DNA from: Candidatus Zixiibacteriota bacterium
GTDB lineage: Bacteria; Zixibacteria; MSB-5A5; SM1-73
Assembly: GCA_023129805.1 (NCBI GenBank)
Contig: JAGMBK010000116.1
Location: 1-5,129, forward strand
Length of the DNA stretch: 5,129 bases
Direction: 5' to 3'
A program made the translations under genes and the position numbers. Below, piece after piece: positions 1-5,129 of the stretch (position 1 is its first letter; the number at the start of each line of letters is the position of its first letter). The notes under the pieces are model-generated. The model worked only from the letters and a program-made list of their open reading frames with translations. It was not told the origin of the DNA and ran no database searches.

Positions 1-52
1 CAGGATGAACCCCTCTCCATTTTATGGAGAGGGGGTTAGGGGGAGAGGTAAA
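1..52. repeat. GC-rich hairpin repeat downstream of dcd
   Basis: A perfect 11-bp inverted repeat (10-20 with 24-34, loop TTT) is followed by a GGGGGAGAGG tract. The opening CAGGATGAACCC is shared with the repeat at 2614-2625, so this belongs to the same dispersed palindromic family. It lies 3' of dcd, where a transcript would fold it, but the stem is not followed by a T-run on the minus strand. I therefore do not call it an intrinsic terminator. The element may continue beyond the left window edge. Confidence 0.6.
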
Positions 53-64
53 AAACTGCAGTGC

Positions 65-619
65 TTATAACTTTGGTAAAGTTATCTTTTTCTGTGCCTG
101 GTATTTCCCTTTTTTATCTTTGTATGAGATTTCGCAAATCTCATCTGCCTCCAGAAAAATTATCTGGGCAATTCCCTCGTTAGCATAGATTTTGGCAGGG
201 AGTGGAGTGGTATTGGAAATTTCCAATGTGGCGTAACCTTCCCATTCCGGCTCAAAAGGGGTGACATTTACAATAATCCCGCAACGGGCATAGGTGGACT
301 TTCCCAGGCAGATGGTCAAAATATTTCGGGGAATTTTAAAATATTCCACTGTCCGGGCCAGAATGAATGAATTAGGGGGGATAAGGCAAAATTTCCCTTT
401 TACATCCACCAACGATCTAGAGTCAAATTTCTTGGGATCCACGATGGTGGTATTGACATTGGTGAAGACTTTGAACTCGTCTGCCACCCTGATATCATAC
501 CCATATGAAGAAAGCCCATAAGAGATAATGCCTTTTTTTATTCGGTTCTCTGAGAATGGCACAATCATCTTGTGCTTTTTTGCCATCCTTCTGATCCACC
601 TGTCCGATTTAATTGGCAT
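65..619 (-). CDS. dcd: dCTP deaminase
   Basis: This 184-residue protein deaminates dCTP to dUTP in the cytoplasm, supplying the dUMP from which thymidylate is made. The opening [13 protein letters not shown] and the block [17 protein letters not shown] (33-49) are typical of the short bacterial Dcd form. GKSTYARCG (106-114) carries the conserved Ser108 and Arg112, and LEISN (132-136) carries the catalytic-type Glu133. The C-terminal GKYQ (171-174) and LPKL ending are the expected nucleotide-covering tail. Length and both ends match the family, so the gene looks complete and functional. The ATG at 617-619 is preferred because the frame further upstream, to 673, reads only repeat-derived sequence and the family starts at MPIKSD. 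No strong Shine-Dalgarno sequence is visible. A degenerate second copy of the first nine codons lies 127 bases upstream. In some lineages related enzymes are bifunctional dCTP deaminase/dUTPases; I cannot separate these by eye. Confidence 0.95.
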
Positions 620-632
620 AACGCTCGATGAA

Positions 633-746
633 CTAAAAATTAAAAATGTAAAGTTGGTTCGGGGTGCCCTCACCCCGAACCATAAATGTTGCGGGGTAGG
701 GTACCCCGCAACAACAGTGGATCCACTTGTCCGACTTTATTGGCAT
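633..746 (-). pseudogene. duplicated fragment of the dcd start, leading into repeat sequence
   Basis: The minus strand from the ATG at 744-746 reads MPIKSDKWI, matching the first nine residues of Dcd (MPIKSDRWI) with one conservative change. After that it runs into hairpin-repeat sequence ([12 protein letters not shown]...) and stops at 633-635, 14 bases before the intact dcd ATG. The similarity also covers an A+T-rich upstream segment. It is best read as a duplicated or decapitated dcd 5' end, about 37 codons long and probably not a functional protein. If transcribed, it would act as a short upstream open reading frame ahead of dcd. Confidence 0.6.
650..716. repeat. two-hairpin palindromic module, compact copy
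   Basis: The first hairpin has perfect 11-bp arms, GGTTCGGGGTG (656-666) and CACCCCGAACC (671-681), with loop CCCT. The second has perfect 11-bp arms, GTTGCGGGGTA (688-698) and TACCCCGCAAC (702-712), with loop GGG. ATAAAT separates them. The same ordered pair in the same orientation recurs, heavily expanded, at 1130-1583, including 24 identical bases at the left edge (650-673 and 1130-1153). No coding function is apparent. Confidence 0.85.
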
Positions 747-851
747 GTTTTAATAAAATAAAAATTAAAAATGCAAAATGAAAAACTACAATGCAAAATT
801 CAAAATTAGGCTGAGAATCAATATGTCGTCAAGGTAACAGAGGAACATTGT

Positions 852-1085
852 TTATCCAAATAAAAGAGAGGTAATTAGAGTCAATTCATAGCAACCGATT
901 GGAAAAATAAATATATAGAGTGATCCAAAAATAACAATCCGAAGTGTTTTTTTGTTCTCACCTGGAAAACATTTCTCAAGAGCGTAGATAAGAACATTAC
1001 CGAGGAGTAACAACAGGAGAAGACCCAAGAGAAAAAATATGCCACATAAAACGGCCTTTGATATATGGAATATTATTTCAGCCAT
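852..1085 (-). CDS. small two-helix membrane protein, function unknown
   Basis: I do not recognise this 77-residue protein. Two strongly hydrophobic segments, about residues 9-36 (with a run of leucines) and about 47-75, are separated by a short polar, charged loop (EKCFPGENKKT). This predicts a hairpin-like inner-membrane protein. The ATG at 1083-1085 is preceded closely by an AGAGGAG ribosome-binding-type sequence, which supports real translation. It stands alone between the repeat cluster downstream of nuoK and the dcd leader, on the same strand as both. It does not resemble NuoK or NuoJ and lacks their conserved glutamate motifs, so there is no reason to link it to complex I. Its small size and repeat-rich surroundings leave some doubt. 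Confidence 0.6.
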   Translation of the reverse strand: MAEIIFHISKAVLCGIFFLLGLLLLLLLGNVLIYALEKCFPGENKKTLRIVIFGSLYIFIFPIGCYELTLITSLLFG

Positions 1086-1157
1086 TTTCTCCTCTTTTAC
1101 TCAAACTTTTTCCACGCCCAGACTACTTAAAAGTTGGTTCGGGGTGCCCTCACTATT

Positions 1158-1438
1158 AGTGTCCCCAAGATTTTAAAGTATGGACAAGGCTTGTCCTTCT
1201 CTACGTAGCGCCCGACCCTTGTTTACCCTGAGCATAGTCGAAGGGTGTCGGGCGTTTGTTTTTTGCGTCCGACAGAAACGTCGGACGCTAGTCACCCTCT
1301 CTCCTGGTGGGAAAAGGGGTATTGTTTGTGGTAACGGAAATTTTGTCTTTTGCTATTTTTCTTAACCTCCGGGACAATGTGCCCGAGACGAACAAAAGAG
1401 ACAAACTATTGAAATCGAAAGAGAATCTTGGGGACACT
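1158..1438. mobile_element. putative MITE-like element with 15-bp terminal inverted repeats
   Basis: Perfect 15-bp terminal inverted repeats, AGTGTCCCCAAGATT at 1158-1172 and its complement at 1424-1438, enclose 281 bp without a plausible transposase. GGTGCCCTC occurs directly on both sides (1143-1151 and 1442-1450), consistent with a 9-bp target duplication, although 6 and 3 bases separate it from the inverted repeats. Inside are several palindromes: GGACAAG/CTTGTCC (1182-1196), CGCCCGAC/GTCGGGCG (1209-1254) enclosing an ACCCTGAGC...GAAGGGT repeat, and GCGTCCGAC/GTCGGACGC (1265-1288). A non-autonomous element moved by a transposase elsewhere is the simplest reading; I cannot name the family. 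Confidence 0.65.
1265..1288. repeat. perfect 9-bp hairpin inside the MITE-like element
   Basis: GCGTCCGAC (1265-1273) and GTCGGACGC (1280-1288) form a perfect stem with a 6-base loop. It lies beside another palindrome of similar base composition (1209-1254). Both look like separate dispersed repeats captured by the larger element. Confidence 0.7.
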
Positions 1439-1468
1439 TGTGGTGCCCTCGCCCCGAACCAGAAATAA

Positions 1469-1518
1469 GGAGTGCGACAACTTCGTTGTTGCATGCGAAA
1501 ACGAAGTTTTCGCACTCC
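1469..1518. repeat. three-way-junction palindrome between the hairpins of the expanded module
   Basis: An outer stem GGAGT/ACTCC (1469-1473 with 1514-1518) encloses two adjacent hairpins. GCGACAAC-TTC-GTTGTTGC (1474-1492) has one wobble pair. GCGAAAAC-GAA-GTTTTCGC (1495-1513) is a perfect 8-bp stem. The loops, TTC and GAA, are complementary to each other. The segment is absent from the compact module copy, so it is a separable unit. There is no tRNA acceptor or anticodon arrangement. Confidence 0.7.
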
Positions 1519-1594
1519 CATACGCATGTTGCGGGGTAAGGGCTTGCCCTGAGGGCGAAGGCCGAAGGGTACCCCGCAACAACGGTTTTGTCCT

Positions 1595-1903
1595 TTACCA
1601 TTTCATAATGTTTATGTTGTCCACGTTAATGCCTTTGAAGTTTCTATATATCAAAAGCACGATAGCTAAACCGACCGTGGCTTCCGCCGCGGCGATGGTT
1701 ATGACAAAGATGGCGAATATCTGTCCCACAAAATCGTTGGGGGTGACAAACTTTGAGAAAGCCACGAAGTTGATATTAACCGCATTGAACATAAGCTCGA
1801 TGGACATCAGAATGCCGATGGCGTTTCTGCGGGTTAAGACCCCGAAGATTCCGATACAGAACAGTATGGTGCTTAAAGTCAAATAGTGATTTAGACCAAC
1901 CAA
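1595..1903 (-). CDS. nuoK: NADH-quinone oxidoreductase subunit K
   Basis: This 102-residue inner-membrane subunit of complex I has three transmembrane helices and takes part in proton translocation; it is the MrpC-like member of the antiporter module. [10 protein letters not shown] (34-43) holds the conserved Glu36 and [14 protein letters not shown] (71-84) holds Glu74, the two buried carboxylates of the family. The C-terminus [17 protein letters not shown] matches the usual ending, so the gene is full length. The start is a TTG at 1901-1903, supported by GGAGGGAG just upstream with 6-9 base spacing; that site overlaps the end of nuoJ. Only 3 bases separate the two genes, so translation is probably coupled. 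NuoL would be expected next but is absent: repeats follow instead. Confidence 0.95.
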
Positions 1904-1906
1904 AAT

Positions 1907-2404
1907 CTACTCCCTCCGGGCGATGATTATCGCCCCGATTAAAGCAGTTAACAAGACCACCGACACTACCTCAAAAGGCAGAACATATTTGGTCAAAAGT
2001 AGCTTGCCTATGCCAACCGTGGATTGAACCTCGGCAACCTCATAAGACAGCTTCCAGGCTGTTCTGCTCAAGGTGAAGATAGTAGCGACCAAAAGCGCGG
2101 CAACGATTATGATTCCGGGAATAACCTGTTCATTGGATTGCCTGATTTTGGCATTGTAAAGCTTGGCTGTGAGCATGATGGCGAAGATCATAAGTATGGT
2201 GATGGCTCCCACGTAAATTAAGACCTGAACTGCTGCCAGAAATTCCGCCGAAAGAAGTATATAGATTCCAGCTACACCAAAAAAGCAAAGCACCAAAAAC
2301 AGAGCACAATGGAATATGTTTTTAAGGCTGACCACCATCACGGCTGAACCTAAGATGATGCCAGTCAGTATGTAGAAGATGGCAGCCGGAATTCCAGTTA
2401 GCAA
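1907..2404 (-). CDS. nuoJ: NADH-quinone oxidoreductase subunit J
   Basis: This membrane subunit of complex I has about five helices and an expected length near 165-175. FHCALFLVLCFFGVAGIYIL (31-50), the conserved LSAEFLAAVQVLIYVGAITI (51-70), whose helix carries the functionally important pi-bulge, and IMLTAKLYN (76-84) identify NuoJ. The C-terminal helix ends IIIARRE. I place the start at the TTG at 2402-2404 (protein begins MLTGIPAAIFYIL, 165 residues), which has AGGA 8 bases upstream. The frame stays open to a GTG at 2432-2434, but those ten extra codons (VRGKNKRNSK) are hydrophilic and run into GGTGAGGG-type repeat sequence, so they are probably not translated. The gene is separated from nuoI by about 1 kb of inserted material, which probably also replaced its original upstream sequence. 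Confidence 0.92.
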   Translation of the reverse strand: MLTGIPAAIFYILTGIILGSAVMVVSLKNIFHCALFLVLCFFGVAGIYILLSAEFLAAVQVLIYVGAITILMIFAIMLTAKLYNAKIRQSNEQVIPGIIIVAALLVATIFTLSRTAWKLSYEVAEVQSTVGIGKLLLTKYVLPFEVVSVVLLTALIGAIIIARRE

Positions 2405-2646: not shown

Positions 2647-3333
2647 TTAAGTATCTTTCTTCTTCGGTAATGTATATTTAACATAGTTATACTCGTCTAA
2701 TAGCTTGGCTAACGTGTAGTTATGTCCTTCTTTCTTGATTCCATTTATGGCTTTCTTGGGGCTACCATGGTGCTTTTTTATGTAGCTTTTTATAACGGCT
2801 TTTGCTTCATTTTGCATTAAAGGTAAAAAACAATAAGCATACTCTGTTCCAGTAAATTTATCGTTTTTAGGTTTCTTCCATCCGTCTTTCTTCTGTTTCC
2901 TCCATATTCTGTTTCTAATTTCTTTATCCCACATGACAAAAAGTTCAGGAAGAATGGTGTGGATAATTTTGGAAGCATCGGTACGTTCGGATCTATTTTT
3001 TTTACCACACCTTGCGGCTAAATTAAAGATTTTTTCAATACATCTTTTCGTTTTTTCGTTCTCAAGGTCTATTTGATCTATGCTTTTATTTTTCAATTCT
3101 TTAATATCGCTATGTATTTGTTTGAAGCATTGATTTAATTTTTTTACATTCCCCAAAAAGTGCGGGTCCCAACTGCGGATAAAGTAGCGAAGTTTCTTAA
3201 TTTCATATTCGCGGACATTTCCATTCTTACACCAGAAATCACCTTTGCTGTTCATATATCCATCATAGAAGAAATATCGAGGTTCTGATTTGATGAACTT
3301 CTTGTGGGCGTCCAAAAGTGTCTTACACTTCAT
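2647..3333 (-). CDS. hypothetical protein inserted between nuoI and nuoJ
   Basis: I cannot name this 228-residue, very basic, soluble-looking protein. It has no signal peptide or membrane helix. An aromatic N-terminal part (RYFFYDGYMNSKGDFWC, 19-35) is followed by FIRSWD (51-56) and a charged helical stretch (about 62-108). A distinctive block follows, TDASKIIHTILPELFVMWDK (118-137), and then a lysine-rich C-terminal half. From memory, a SK.LH...P.LF.MWD..I core occurs in a scattered family of uncharacterised proteins; I could not check this. The ATG at 3331-3333 has a strong GGGAGG 8 bases upstream, so it is very likely expressed, perhaps with the nuo transcript. Its coding sequence is visibly richer in A+T than the nuo genes, and hairpin repeats border it on both sides. 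These features fit a horizontally acquired cargo gene. A role in complex I is unlikely. Confidence 0.8.
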   Translation of the reverse strand: MKCKTLLDAHKKFIKSEPRYFFYDGYMNSKGDFWCKNGNVREYEIKKLRYFIRSWDPHFLGNVKKLNQCFKQIHSDIKELKNKSIDQIDLENEKTKRCIEKIFNLAARCGKKNRSERTDASKIIHTILPELFVMWDKEIRNRIWRKQKKDGWKKPKNDKFTGTEYAYCFLPLMQNEAKAVIKSYIKKHHGSPKKAINGIKKEGHNYTLAKLLDEYNYVKYTLPKKKDT

Positions 3334-3455: not shown

Positions 3456-3905
3456 TTATTGATATTCCTTTCCTATCTCAGCTAATTTCTCCTTATTGTA
3501 AATCAACTCTTTCTTATCATAAACTGAAAACTCATACAAGGGAACCAATTTTATGGCTTTTCCCTTTACCGGACAGGTCTCTTCACACAATCCGCAATAG
3601 ATGCACAGGCCAGTGTCCACCTCAAAAACCTCAGCCACCCTTTTTCCGCTCTCGTCCTTGGTGGCGGAAAATTTTATGGCATTGTTGGGACAAATTTTGT
3701 AGCACAAGCCGCAAGCGATGCACTTGAGTTTGTTGGTCTGGGGATCAGTGAGAAGCACCACGCATCCGCGGGACCGCTCTGGCATGGTCCATCTTTCTTT
3801 GGGATACTGTAAGGTGATAGCGTGTTTTCCCAGATGCTTCACCGTCACGGTAAGTCCCAGAATCAAATTATATATTCCCGAATATATGGTTTTAATTAAA
3901 GCCAT
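3456..3905 (-). CDS. nuoI: NADH-quinone oxidoreductase subunit I (2x 4Fe-4S)
   Basis: This peripheral-arm subunit of complex I passes electrons through clusters N6a and N6b toward N2 and quinone. Two canonical motifs are intact: CIACGLCYKICP (Cys62, 65, 68, 72) and CIYCGLCEETCP (Cys101, 104, 107, 111). An N-terminal amphipathic helix (MALIKTIYSGIYNLILGL) should lie on the membrane. At 149 residues it is in the family's usual range. I use the ATG at 3903-3905, which leaves 4 bases after nuoH. A TTG at 3915-3917 would add four residues (MLKI) and overlap nuoH by 8 bases. Neither has a convincing Shine-Dalgarno sequence, so translation is probably coupled to nuoH. The next nuo gene, nuoJ, is displaced by about 1 kb. 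Confidence 0.95.
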   Translation of the reverse strand: MALIKTIYSGIYNLILGLTVTVKHLGKHAITLQYPKERWTMPERSRGCVVLLTDPQTNKLKCIACGLCYKICPNNAIKFSATKDESGKRVAEVFEVDTGLCIYCGLCEETCPVKGKAIKLVPLYEFSVYDKKELIYNKEKLAEIGKEYQ

Positions 3906-3909
3906 GATC

Positions 3910-4938
3910 TTAAGCAAAAAGTCCGGTTAAGATTAAATTTAAAAATGCCAGGGGCAACAGAAACTTCCAGGCAAAATCCATCAATTGATCCACCCGGACG
4001 CGGGGATAGGTCCATCTAAACCACATGATCACAAGGATTATTCCAAAGGTCTTAATAAAGAACCACATCCAGGAAGGAAGCCAAGGTCCGTTCCATCCTC
4101 CCAAAAAGAGGGTGGTGGCAACAGCGCTTATGGCGAAAAGATTGGTGTATTCGGCAAAGAAGAACATGGCGAATTTCATTCCGCTGTATTCGGTGTTATA
4201 ACCTGCCACCAACTCCTGTTCCGCCTCCGGTATGTCAAAGGGAGTCCGGTTCACCTCGGCTATGGCGGCGGTTAAATAGACCAAAAACCCAATGGGTTGT
4301 CTGATGATATACCAATCCCAAAAATGTGCCTGCGATTTGACTATCGCCACCATGGAGAGAGATTGTGCCAGAAGCACCACGCCCAACACGGACAAAGTCA
4401 GAGGGACCTCATAGCTTATTATCTGTGCGGCTGATCTGAGTCCCCCCAGAAGAGAATATTTATTGTTAGACCCCCACCCCGCCATCAAAAGTCCCACCAC
4501 GGTGAAGGTAGTGATGGCTAAGATATATAATATCCCGATATTAAGATCCCGCACAATGAGCCCTCTGCCGAAGGGAATGCATACATACACCATAAAAGCG
4601 GAGGCGAAGATCACTATGGGAGCTATCACAAATACCGCTTTGTCCACCTTAGCAGGGACTATGTCCTCCTTCTGGATTAGTTTCAGCCCATCCATCATGG
4701 TCTGTATCCATCCGTGCCAGCCGGTTCGCATGGGACCGAATCTGACCTGCATATGGGCGGATACTTTTCTCTCCCACCAGATCAGAAACAAAACTGCCAG
4801 GGAGATGAAGGCAATGATAACCACTGCCACCAGCAACATGGAGAGAAGGTCCAGCCAGAAGTGGGGAATGCCCCATCGGATGAACAATCCTTCCAGCCAG
4901 AAGTAAACTGCCTTGAAAACCTTATCTAATTCAAACAA
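3910..4938 (-). CDS. nuoH: NADH-quinone oxidoreductase subunit H
   Basis: This 342-residue, eight-helix-type membrane subunit anchors the peripheral arm and forms much of the quinone chamber of complex I. WWERKVSAHMQVRFGPMRTG (54-73) with DGLKLIQKEDIVP (83-95) is the first conserved loop. GWGSNNKYSLLGGLRSAAQ (154-172) is the second. AEVNRTPFDIPEAEQELVAG (227-246), continuing through YNTEYSG, is the acidic third loop, and WFRWTYPRVRVDQLM (306-320) is the fourth. Length and ends match the family. The start is a TTG at 4936-4938, supported by GGGAGAGAG with 7 bases between GGGAG and the codon. It lies 49 bases after nuoD, and nuoI follows closely, so the three genes are almost certainly co-transcribed. 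Confidence 0.97.
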   Translation of the reverse strand: MFELDKVFKAVYFWLEGLFIRWGIPHFWLDLLSMLLVAVVIIAFISLAVLFLIWWERKVSAHMQVRFGPMRTGWHGWIQTMMDGLKLIQKEDIVPAKVDKAVFVIAPIVIFASAFMVYVCIPFGRGLIVRDLNIGILYILAITTFTVVGLLMAGWGSNNKYSLLGGLRSAAQIISYEVPLTLSVLGVVLLAQSLSMVAIVKSQAHFWDWYIIRQPIGFLVYLTAAIAEVNRTPFDIPEAEQELVAGYNTEYSGMKFAMFFFAEYTNLFAISAVATTLFLGGWNGPWLPSWMWFFIKTFGIILVIMWFRWTYPRVRVDQLMDFAWKFLLPLAFLNLILTGLFA

Positions 4939-4950: not shown

Positions 4951-4987
4951 GATGTTGCGTAGTTGCCCGATTCATCGGACCTTGTGT

Positions 4988-5129
4988 CTATCTATCCACG
5001 TCCGGCATGATCACGTCTAAGCTCGCAAAGATAACCACCAGATCTGCGATCTTCCAGCTTCTGACCATCCTATTGCTGGGGCGGGGGTTGAACCCCCGCC
5101 CCTTTTGCGGACAGGGGTACAACCCCTGT
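4988..5129 (-). CDS. nuoD: NADH-quinone oxidoreductase subunit D, C-terminal end (partial)
   Basis: The minus strand ends WKIADLVVIFASLDVIMPDVDR before a TAG at 4988-4990. This corresponds to the conserved KIAD..AI..SID...G..DR C-terminus of the 49-kDa subunit NuoD, which helps form the quinone pocket beside cluster N2. Its place directly upstream of nuoH fits. The upstream frame stays open to the window edge but reads glycine-, proline- and arginine-rich repeat sequence (QGLYPCPQKGRGFNPRPSN), where NuoD normally has its SF.NL..LP segment. Either a palindromic repeat has inserted in frame, or the frame is broken outside the window. The usual catalytic part of NuoD lies beyond the right edge. 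Confidence 0.85.
   Translation of the reverse strand, partial: QGLYPCPQKGRGFNPRPSNRMVRSWKIADLVVIFASLDVIMPDVDR
5078..5129. repeat. paired palindromic repeat inside the nuoD reading frame
   Basis: GGGGCGGGGGTT (5078-5089) and AACCCCCGCCCC (5091-5102) are perfect 12-bp arms around a single G. TTTTGCGG follows, then ACAGGGGT/ACCCCTGT (5111-5118 with 5122-5129). The repeat may continue past the window edge. On the minus strand it has no stop codon in the nuoD frame. Confidence 0.85.

Follow-up and report, generated by a model that had tools for sequence, protein, structure and literature searches.

A REPIN-like palindromic element beside the 3' end of nuoD in a Zixibacteria contig

We have identified, at the edge of a Zixibacteria contig, a copy of a palindromic element that is dispersed and non-autonomous and has the anatomy of a REPIN, as shown by its hairpin layout, its dispersal among related genomes and the covariation of its arms. 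The element stands beside the 3' end of nuoD, and the nuoD frame is open across it, which a preliminary description had taken as a repeat translated within the NuoD C-terminus. We consider it probable that this copy of nuoD breaks off at the repeat or has been replaced in part there, with no tolerated in-frame peptide, and that the open frame is mainly incidental. The main lesson is that repeats at contig ends can mimic in-frame insertions. The window, by which we mean the whole stretch of DNA that was analyzed, comprises 5,129 nucleotides (positions 1 to 5,129 of contig JAGMBK010000116.1, Candidatus Zixiibacteriota bacterium, assembly GCA_023129805.1), and its features are given in Table 1.

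Table 1. Positions of genes, repeats and hairpins in the window
Feature	Position	Strand	Evidence and remarks
Further REP doublet	654..718	-	Resembles the copies next to a Y1-type transposase gene of G004 (L183, G004:C1); identity 82% (67 bases) to the copy on one side and 78% (50 bases) to that on the other
Further REP copy	1527..1587	-	87-89% identity to the copies that flank the same G004 transposase gene (L183) on its two sides
nuoK, intact	1595..1903	-	Pfam/tblastn
nuoJ, intact	1907..2404	-	ORF can begin upstream at 2434
ORF of 228 aa between nuoI and nuoJ	2647-3333	-	Family not recognised
nuoI, intact	3456..3917	-	Pfam, tblastn
nuoH, intact	3910..4938	-	Pfam NADHdh; dN/dS 0.08 against L001
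nuoD, 3' end	4988..5069	-	Stop codon 4988-4990 and last codons, MVRSWKIADLVVIFASLDVIMPDVDR
Junction bases, from nuoD homology to the GCT end of the repeat	5070..5074	+	Match boundaries
REPIN-like element	5075..5129	+	Model positions 1-57 of 63; 3' end cut by the window end, about 6 bases short
Hairpin 1	5078..5102	+	25-base palindrome, perfect 12-bp arms, 1-nt loop
Hairpin 2, part in window	5111..5129	+	19-base palindrome, 8-bp arms, 3-nt loop; ends on the last window base

The two palindromes that had been noticed next to the NuoD ending are real, with their arms of 12 and 8 bp. Folded as single-stranded DNA, positions 5071-5129 form exactly these two hairpins (z = -5.7), and the same segment folded as RNA gives z = -4.5; none of 200 shuffles was as good in either case. 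With up to 3 mismatches allowed, the first palindrome occurs once in the window and in none of 200 shuffles. The second is cut by the window end: the left arm probably begins at 5108, the right arm finishes beyond the window, and the completion suggested by other copies and by a short database protein, P0001, would be ...CTGTCCGAAC. No Rfam family reached its gathering score in the window, and a tRNA scan of the window returned nothing. A terminator role for 5075-5129 was considered and dropped; the terminator scan gave 10 matches (5.5 expected), none of them at this position.

On the minus strand the frame reads QGLYPCPQKGRGFNPRPSNR, then MVRSWKIADLVVIFASLDVIMPDVDR and the stop codon. It contains no inner stop, and the earlier observation that it passes through both palindromes up to the window end was correct. 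This openness is weak evidence of translation, because two of the three frames on the nuoD strand are free of stops in the window copy, as are 37 of 60 in 10 related copies. The nuoD frame is open through the repeat mainly because GC-rich palindromes hold few stops, and its continuity is probably incidental. Since the window stops inside the second palindrome, a position within NuoD is unreadable from the window itself.

The codons that precede the stop belong to the NuoD family (Complex1_49kDa, PF00346). By tblastn they match residues 336-362 of NuoD from Zixibacteria SM23_73_3 (locus L001) at 89% identity (E 8e-10). The nuoD DNA homology of two relatives, G001 and G005, stops at window position 5069, and matches to the repeat family begin at 5070 (G005) and 5071 (G007). 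Window positions 4985-5129 were compared with 146 genomes, with the best 5 candidates considered per genome, and 9 genomes matched some part: four the nuoD part only, three the repeat part only, and two (G001 and G005) both parts at separate places. Among these candidates from the 146 genomes, no match crossed 5069/5070, and the exact 38-base junction pattern had no match in viral contigs. The tail differs from that of L001 by 10 synonymous and 3 nonsynonymous changes in 26 codons, giving a dN/dS of 0.04 for these 26 codons only. One nonsynonymous change turns the Gly of RGW, found in L001, in locus L111 and in the database fragment P0002, into Ser in the window; it is a mere hint, since the RGW position varies in some other Zixibacteria tails. 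The genes from nuoH to nuoK likewise have a conserved appearance (dN/dS 0.035-0.08), and because they and the nuoD tail look conserved, any break in nuoD must be recent.

Extension of the contig to the right had been proposed as a check, and a protein database search provides part of it. The search admitted only lengths of about 25-80 residues and returned two short proteins. P0002, a JGI-named NuoD fragment, reads MPYRLKLRTASFSNLAVLPEMVRGW...VDR and has no repeat. P0001 (53 aa, from a record of 2037 bases) reads MRFYMFGQGLYPCPQKGRGFNPRPSNRMVRSW...VDR, and the nuoD/repeat junction thus appears in a record that reads further than the window. P0001 completes the repeat in frame, its FGQ fitting ...GTTCGGACAG. 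The residues before the element are MRFYM instead of the ...SFSNLAVLPE of NuoD; the extension bears out the open frame and does not clearly show the expected upstream half of NuoD. P0001 may come from the same sample as the window and hence be non-independent. Either its frame closes upstream or the record ends there, and the protein may be a contig-edge fragment; its start alone proves nothing, because P0002 likewise begins at an internal Met and is nothing but a NuoD tail. Residues 26-53 of P0001 align with positions 244-271 of the 271-position PF00346 profile at 21.6 bits, under the 24-bit cut-off, as expected of a fragment.

Alignment of NuoD from relatives, another check that had been proposed, confirmed a conserved tail and argued against an insertion at this point. 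We searched 101 loci, 95 of which have a tail match, with 70 distinct strings for the last 39 residues. All 95 matches reach the end of the protein, and 94 are gapless from R..SF on. The sole exception (L106, G026:C27) has two additional residues (RGKGYLIAD) a few positions beyond the junction. Two solved chains of NuoD/NdhH, 2fug_4, which we take to be from Thermus, and 6hum_H, presumably cyanobacterial, also align at the site without a gap. As judged from these alignments, the insertion site is almost rigid in length. An in-frame insertion within NuoD is thus unsupported: P0001 carries MRFYM before the element and was called as a protein of 53 aa, and 94 of the 95 loci are gapless.

Both ends of the window lie in dispersed multi-copy repeats (1-55 and 5070-5129), and the contig stops here because such repeats tend to halt assembly. 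The related copies show the same tendency. For 29 copies, which were picked by hand from the match list of 10 genomes on contigs of known size, with most copies of one genome (G013) left out, four are found at most 200 bp away from a contig end, where 0.92 would be expected (P 0.014), and three at most 150 bp away, where the expectation is 0.69 (P 0.033). A repeat at a contig end does not by itself make the junction false. A chimeric read or an assembly error could nevertheless have carried the contig from nuoD into the repeat while the real nuoD is intact, and the repeats at both window ends, the excess of copies near contig ends and the uninterrupted sibling tail in P0002 are all consistent with such an error. 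P0001, though perhaps not independent, has the same junction and reads further, and by inspection there appears to be no long overlap between nuoD and the repeat that would lead a k-mer assembler across. We regard a false join as rather unlikely.

The repeat itself was characterized from an alignment of 15 copies, the window copy included. Copies of about 60-68 bp consist of two GC-rich hairpins in opposite orientation with a short spacer, the inverted pair by which REPINs are recognized; the typical length of the element is put at about 61-66 bp. The loops are GTTGYAC and, inverted, GTRCAAC, and the matched ends are GYT...ARC; the GTAG or CGTC tag that marks one end in the GTAG/CGTC REP superfamilies is absent. 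Pairing holds in 94.7% of 339 cells, and 9 of the 23 pairs change on both sides. None of 500 shuffles reached the covariation score; a second covariation measure, with further pair types, stayed within its control (58 of 500 shuffles as high). A covariance model scores the window copy at 68.5 bits, a value to be read with this copy in the training set, and an independent blastn comparison aligned the window copy with G001:C3:12657-12713 at 88% identity (E 5e-14).

That the palindromes belong to a dispersed repeat family of the mobile kind, as had been suggested, was borne out. By blastn the repeat part was matched in all of 7 genomes at E < 1e-3, and the covariance model gave matches at E <= 0.1 in 10 of 10 (best 150 candidates per genome). 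In a search of 14 genomes, a pattern for the second hairpin had up to 19 matches per strand and its reversed control 0-1; in four of these genomes (G008, G009, G012 and G014) the pattern itself had 0-1 matches per strand, like or nearly like the control. As in REPINs, the copies are dispersed, numerous and mostly extragenic, with 83 of 98 surveyed sites lacking a spanning frame. Copy number appears to be highest in G013, with at least 109 model matches at E up to 0.1 when both strands are counted; the genome that ranks second among the 10 has at least 45.

Of 29 relatives, 28 have Y1-type transposases (PF01797), 7 of 7 in one set and 21 of 22 in the other, and about two-thirds of 52 PF01797 loci have, by eye, matching palindromes on both sides. 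The exact core of the nuoD-repeat family flanks none of the 52 on both sides. The closest case is the transposase gene at L193 (G006:C296), where the model matches on both sides with 38.5 bits (E 1.5e-6) and 19.9 bits (E 0.03). The doublets there, at 785-853 and 1426-1515, have GTTGG...CGAAC ends and the same inverted layout as the nuoD repeat, with other letters in the arms. Three further loci have weaker or one-sided matches: L242 on both sides (23.7 and 19.6 bits), L180 with a full copy on one side only (54.4 bits), and L214 with a weak match on one side (18.0 bits). Because the L193 doublets share its ends and inverted layout, the nuoD-repeat family would seem to be a sister of a doublet that flanks a transposase gene. 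We call it REPIN-like. Two other repeats in the window (654-718 and 1527-1587) are 76-89% identical, over the aligned pieces, to repeats that flank the G004 transposase gene.

If the family moves as its kind does, a movement that we infer from that kind, the two-hairpin, non-autonomous element would be mobilized as single-stranded DNA by a Y1 (RAYT) transposase. It would then have reached nuoD, about 27 codons before the stop, through insertion with loss of sequence or through recombination between repeats, and as a multi-copy element it would have halted the assembly at the end of nuoD.

Copies inside other genes were surveyed at 98 sites of at least 31.4 bits in 10 genomes, taken by hand from matches in 93 loci. 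The survey omits some places on the 10-genome match list, and the places in G001 were examined separately. An open frame of at least 120 aa spanning the repeat was sought, a test blind to genes that the repeat has thrown out of frame. A spanning frame was present at 15 of the 98 sites: 2 within genes, 11 without a Pfam match, and 2 in which the repeat lies upstream of the likely start. The last two (L322 and L325) encode beta-propeller proteins, with the repeat 5' of the likely start and signal peptide by eye. In G001, 12 of 14 places lacked a spanning ORF of 80 aa, and the two ORFs found measure 82 and 99 aa. A smaller survey flagged 8 of 58 loci, among which L116/L168 and L119/L165 are two places counted twice; L126 and L136 had no Pfam match. 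A ParA/Mrp-like gene (L125) was rejected as an in-gene copy and left uncounted; by eye, its own coding sequence resembles a single hairpin.

Both in-gene copies have recognised domains on either side of the repeat. In CopA of G007 (L135, G007:C92; L255), a P-type ATPase, the element lies within a 31-residue in-frame stretch between the YHS and HMA domains. The orthologue in G010 (L259, G010:C56), 97% identical before the insert and 89% after it, is without this stretch; on either side of the insert about 12 bases are nearly duplicated, as judged by eye. The other copy belongs to an MFS transporter in G006 (L165/L243, G006:C74), where the element is in frame in the central loop, with a net gain of 13 residues in a comparison with relatives that are 83% and 70% identical. 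The two genes read the repeat in different frames, and the encoded peptides differ. The idea of such repeats being read in frame within genes is to this extent supported. In-frame insertion does occur in the Zixibacteria lineage; it is rare, and both known cases are in variable linkers.

Because two relatives carry the element in frame within genes, NuoD could in principle also tolerate an insertion. Such a NuoD, complete and working in other respects, would contain about 22 additional residues, in the manner of Rickettsia palindromic elements or intragenic REP dimers. The frame open through the whole element, the CopA and MFS inserts, the conserved nuoD tail and the two extra residues of L106 near the site all favor such a protein. 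P0001, however, is without NuoD residues before the element, 94 of 95 NuoD loci are gapless, unlike the variable linkers in which the CopA and MFS copies sit, Ser takes the place of the RGW glycine in the window, and the frames of other copies are often open anyway. We judge a complete NuoD with an inserted peptide to be unlikely.

The repeat might instead stand for about 27 nuoD codons, from after MGFY to before MVRGW, in a hybrid frame. The MRFY of P0001 resembles the MGFY of NuoD in the same frame, a likeness equaled by 2.5% of random peptides of M plus three residues, and it therefore leaves room for a replacement of this kind. The match covers four residues only, the lost segment would include the conserved RTASFSNL, and P0001 was called as a gene of 53 aa; we find a frame-keeping replacement quite unlikely. 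Doubtful to a still greater degree is a lineage-wide tolerance of translated REPIN-type palindromes that extends even to NuoD, as a hybrid with about 22 repeat residues for about 27 conserved ones by the quinone pocket; such a hybrid would be tolerated perhaps because many relatives hold a second NuoD-like gene. Interruption or partial replacement of nuoD at the repeat is the reading that we prefer.

Intragenic REP dimers and Rickettsia palindromic elements are both already in print, and it is useful to place the present family among these and other known systems. REPINs are described in the available text of their account as doublets of REP hairpins (PMC3116915). The Zixibacteria family resembles them, as there described, in its short, GC-rich, inverted hairpin pair, its dispersal, its usual lack of a gene frame and the Y1-type transposases in the same genomes (PMC3116915), and at the L193 gene of G006 both flanks carry doublets that share its GTTGG...CGAAC ends. 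It differs in that its exact core flanks none of the 52 transposase loci on both sides and in that no GTAG or CGTC tag stands at its ends. For GTAG/CGTC REPs within genes, the text available to us states that dimers or groups that code for 20-30 residues make up over half of the inserts, and it names flexible linkers and loops as places tolerant of such inserts (PMC3733652). REPs in known genes recall CopA and the MFS transporter here, although they belong to another sequence family and another phylum; the string 'Zixi' is absent from that text of PMC3733652.

The Rickettsia parallel drawn in the preliminary description was a fair lead, and REP doublets (REPINs) have turned out to be a closer match than the long Rickettsia elements. 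In the parts of the sources at hand, classic Rickettsia palindromic elements (RPEs) measure about 150 bp, lie in genes in nearly half of the cases and encode a conserved peptide (PMC10969869, PMC3733652), and RPE-4 and RPE-6 are counted as CGTC REPs (PMC3733652). The likeness is a palindromic repeat translated in frame within protein genes, with both halves of the gene present; this describes CopA and the MFS transporter of the relatives, and for NuoD the 3' part alone is seen. As far as those accounts go, the differences are larger: the Zixibacteria copies are about 60-68 bp, neither about 150 bp long nor the source of one conserved peptide, only 2 of 98 sit in frame within recognisable genes, and CopA and the MFS transporter read the element in different frames. 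The MITEs of DNA transposons are also small, non-autonomous and bounded by inverted repeats, whereas the Zixibacteria element consists of two separate hairpins with three matched terminal bases only, and no general target-site duplication emerged for it, the near-duplicate at CopA having been seen by eye.

As judged by title and the start of the abstract, we found no account of palindromic or REPIN repeats in Zixibacteria, and none of the matches listed joins nuoD with a palindromic repeat in its title. Our results add a REPIN-like family for Zixibacteria and, in the CopA genes of G007 and G010, a before/after pair for a gene that holds a palindromic doublet in frame. Were the nuoD copy shown to be translated, it would be a test of foreign peptide load in a core subunit of complex I.

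The remainder of the window is a nuo operon, read on the minus strand in the order end of nuoD, nuoH, nuoI, the 228-aa ORF, nuoJ and nuoK. Its NuoH is 89% identical to that of SM23_73_3, and the DNA identity to the same operon is 86% and 91% over two long stretches. The 228-aa ORF matched nothing in Pfam or PADLOC, its only NCBIfam match was below the threshold, and tblastn against the related loci gave no match. Downstream of nuoK, window positions 1-1600 hold dispersed repeats and a dCTP deaminase-like gene. In six related loci (L001-L006) nuoL follows nuoK, up to 0.85 kb away; in the window it is absent from the 1.6 kb past nuoK. The operon is altered past nuoK as well.

Two minor observations concern nuoD and its surroundings. 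The NuoD of SM23_73_3 (L001:198-1283) appears to be without about 27 residues, between GEVI and PYTDR, that are found in L111 and L003, the GYLHR stretch included. A short direct repeat lies at the edges of this gap, which would reflect either a real loss or an assembly error. In the window, the spacer between nuoD and nuoH contains, at 4960-4982, TAGTTGCCCGATTCATCGGACC, which resembles the palindromes next to another Y1 transposase gene (G001, L190).
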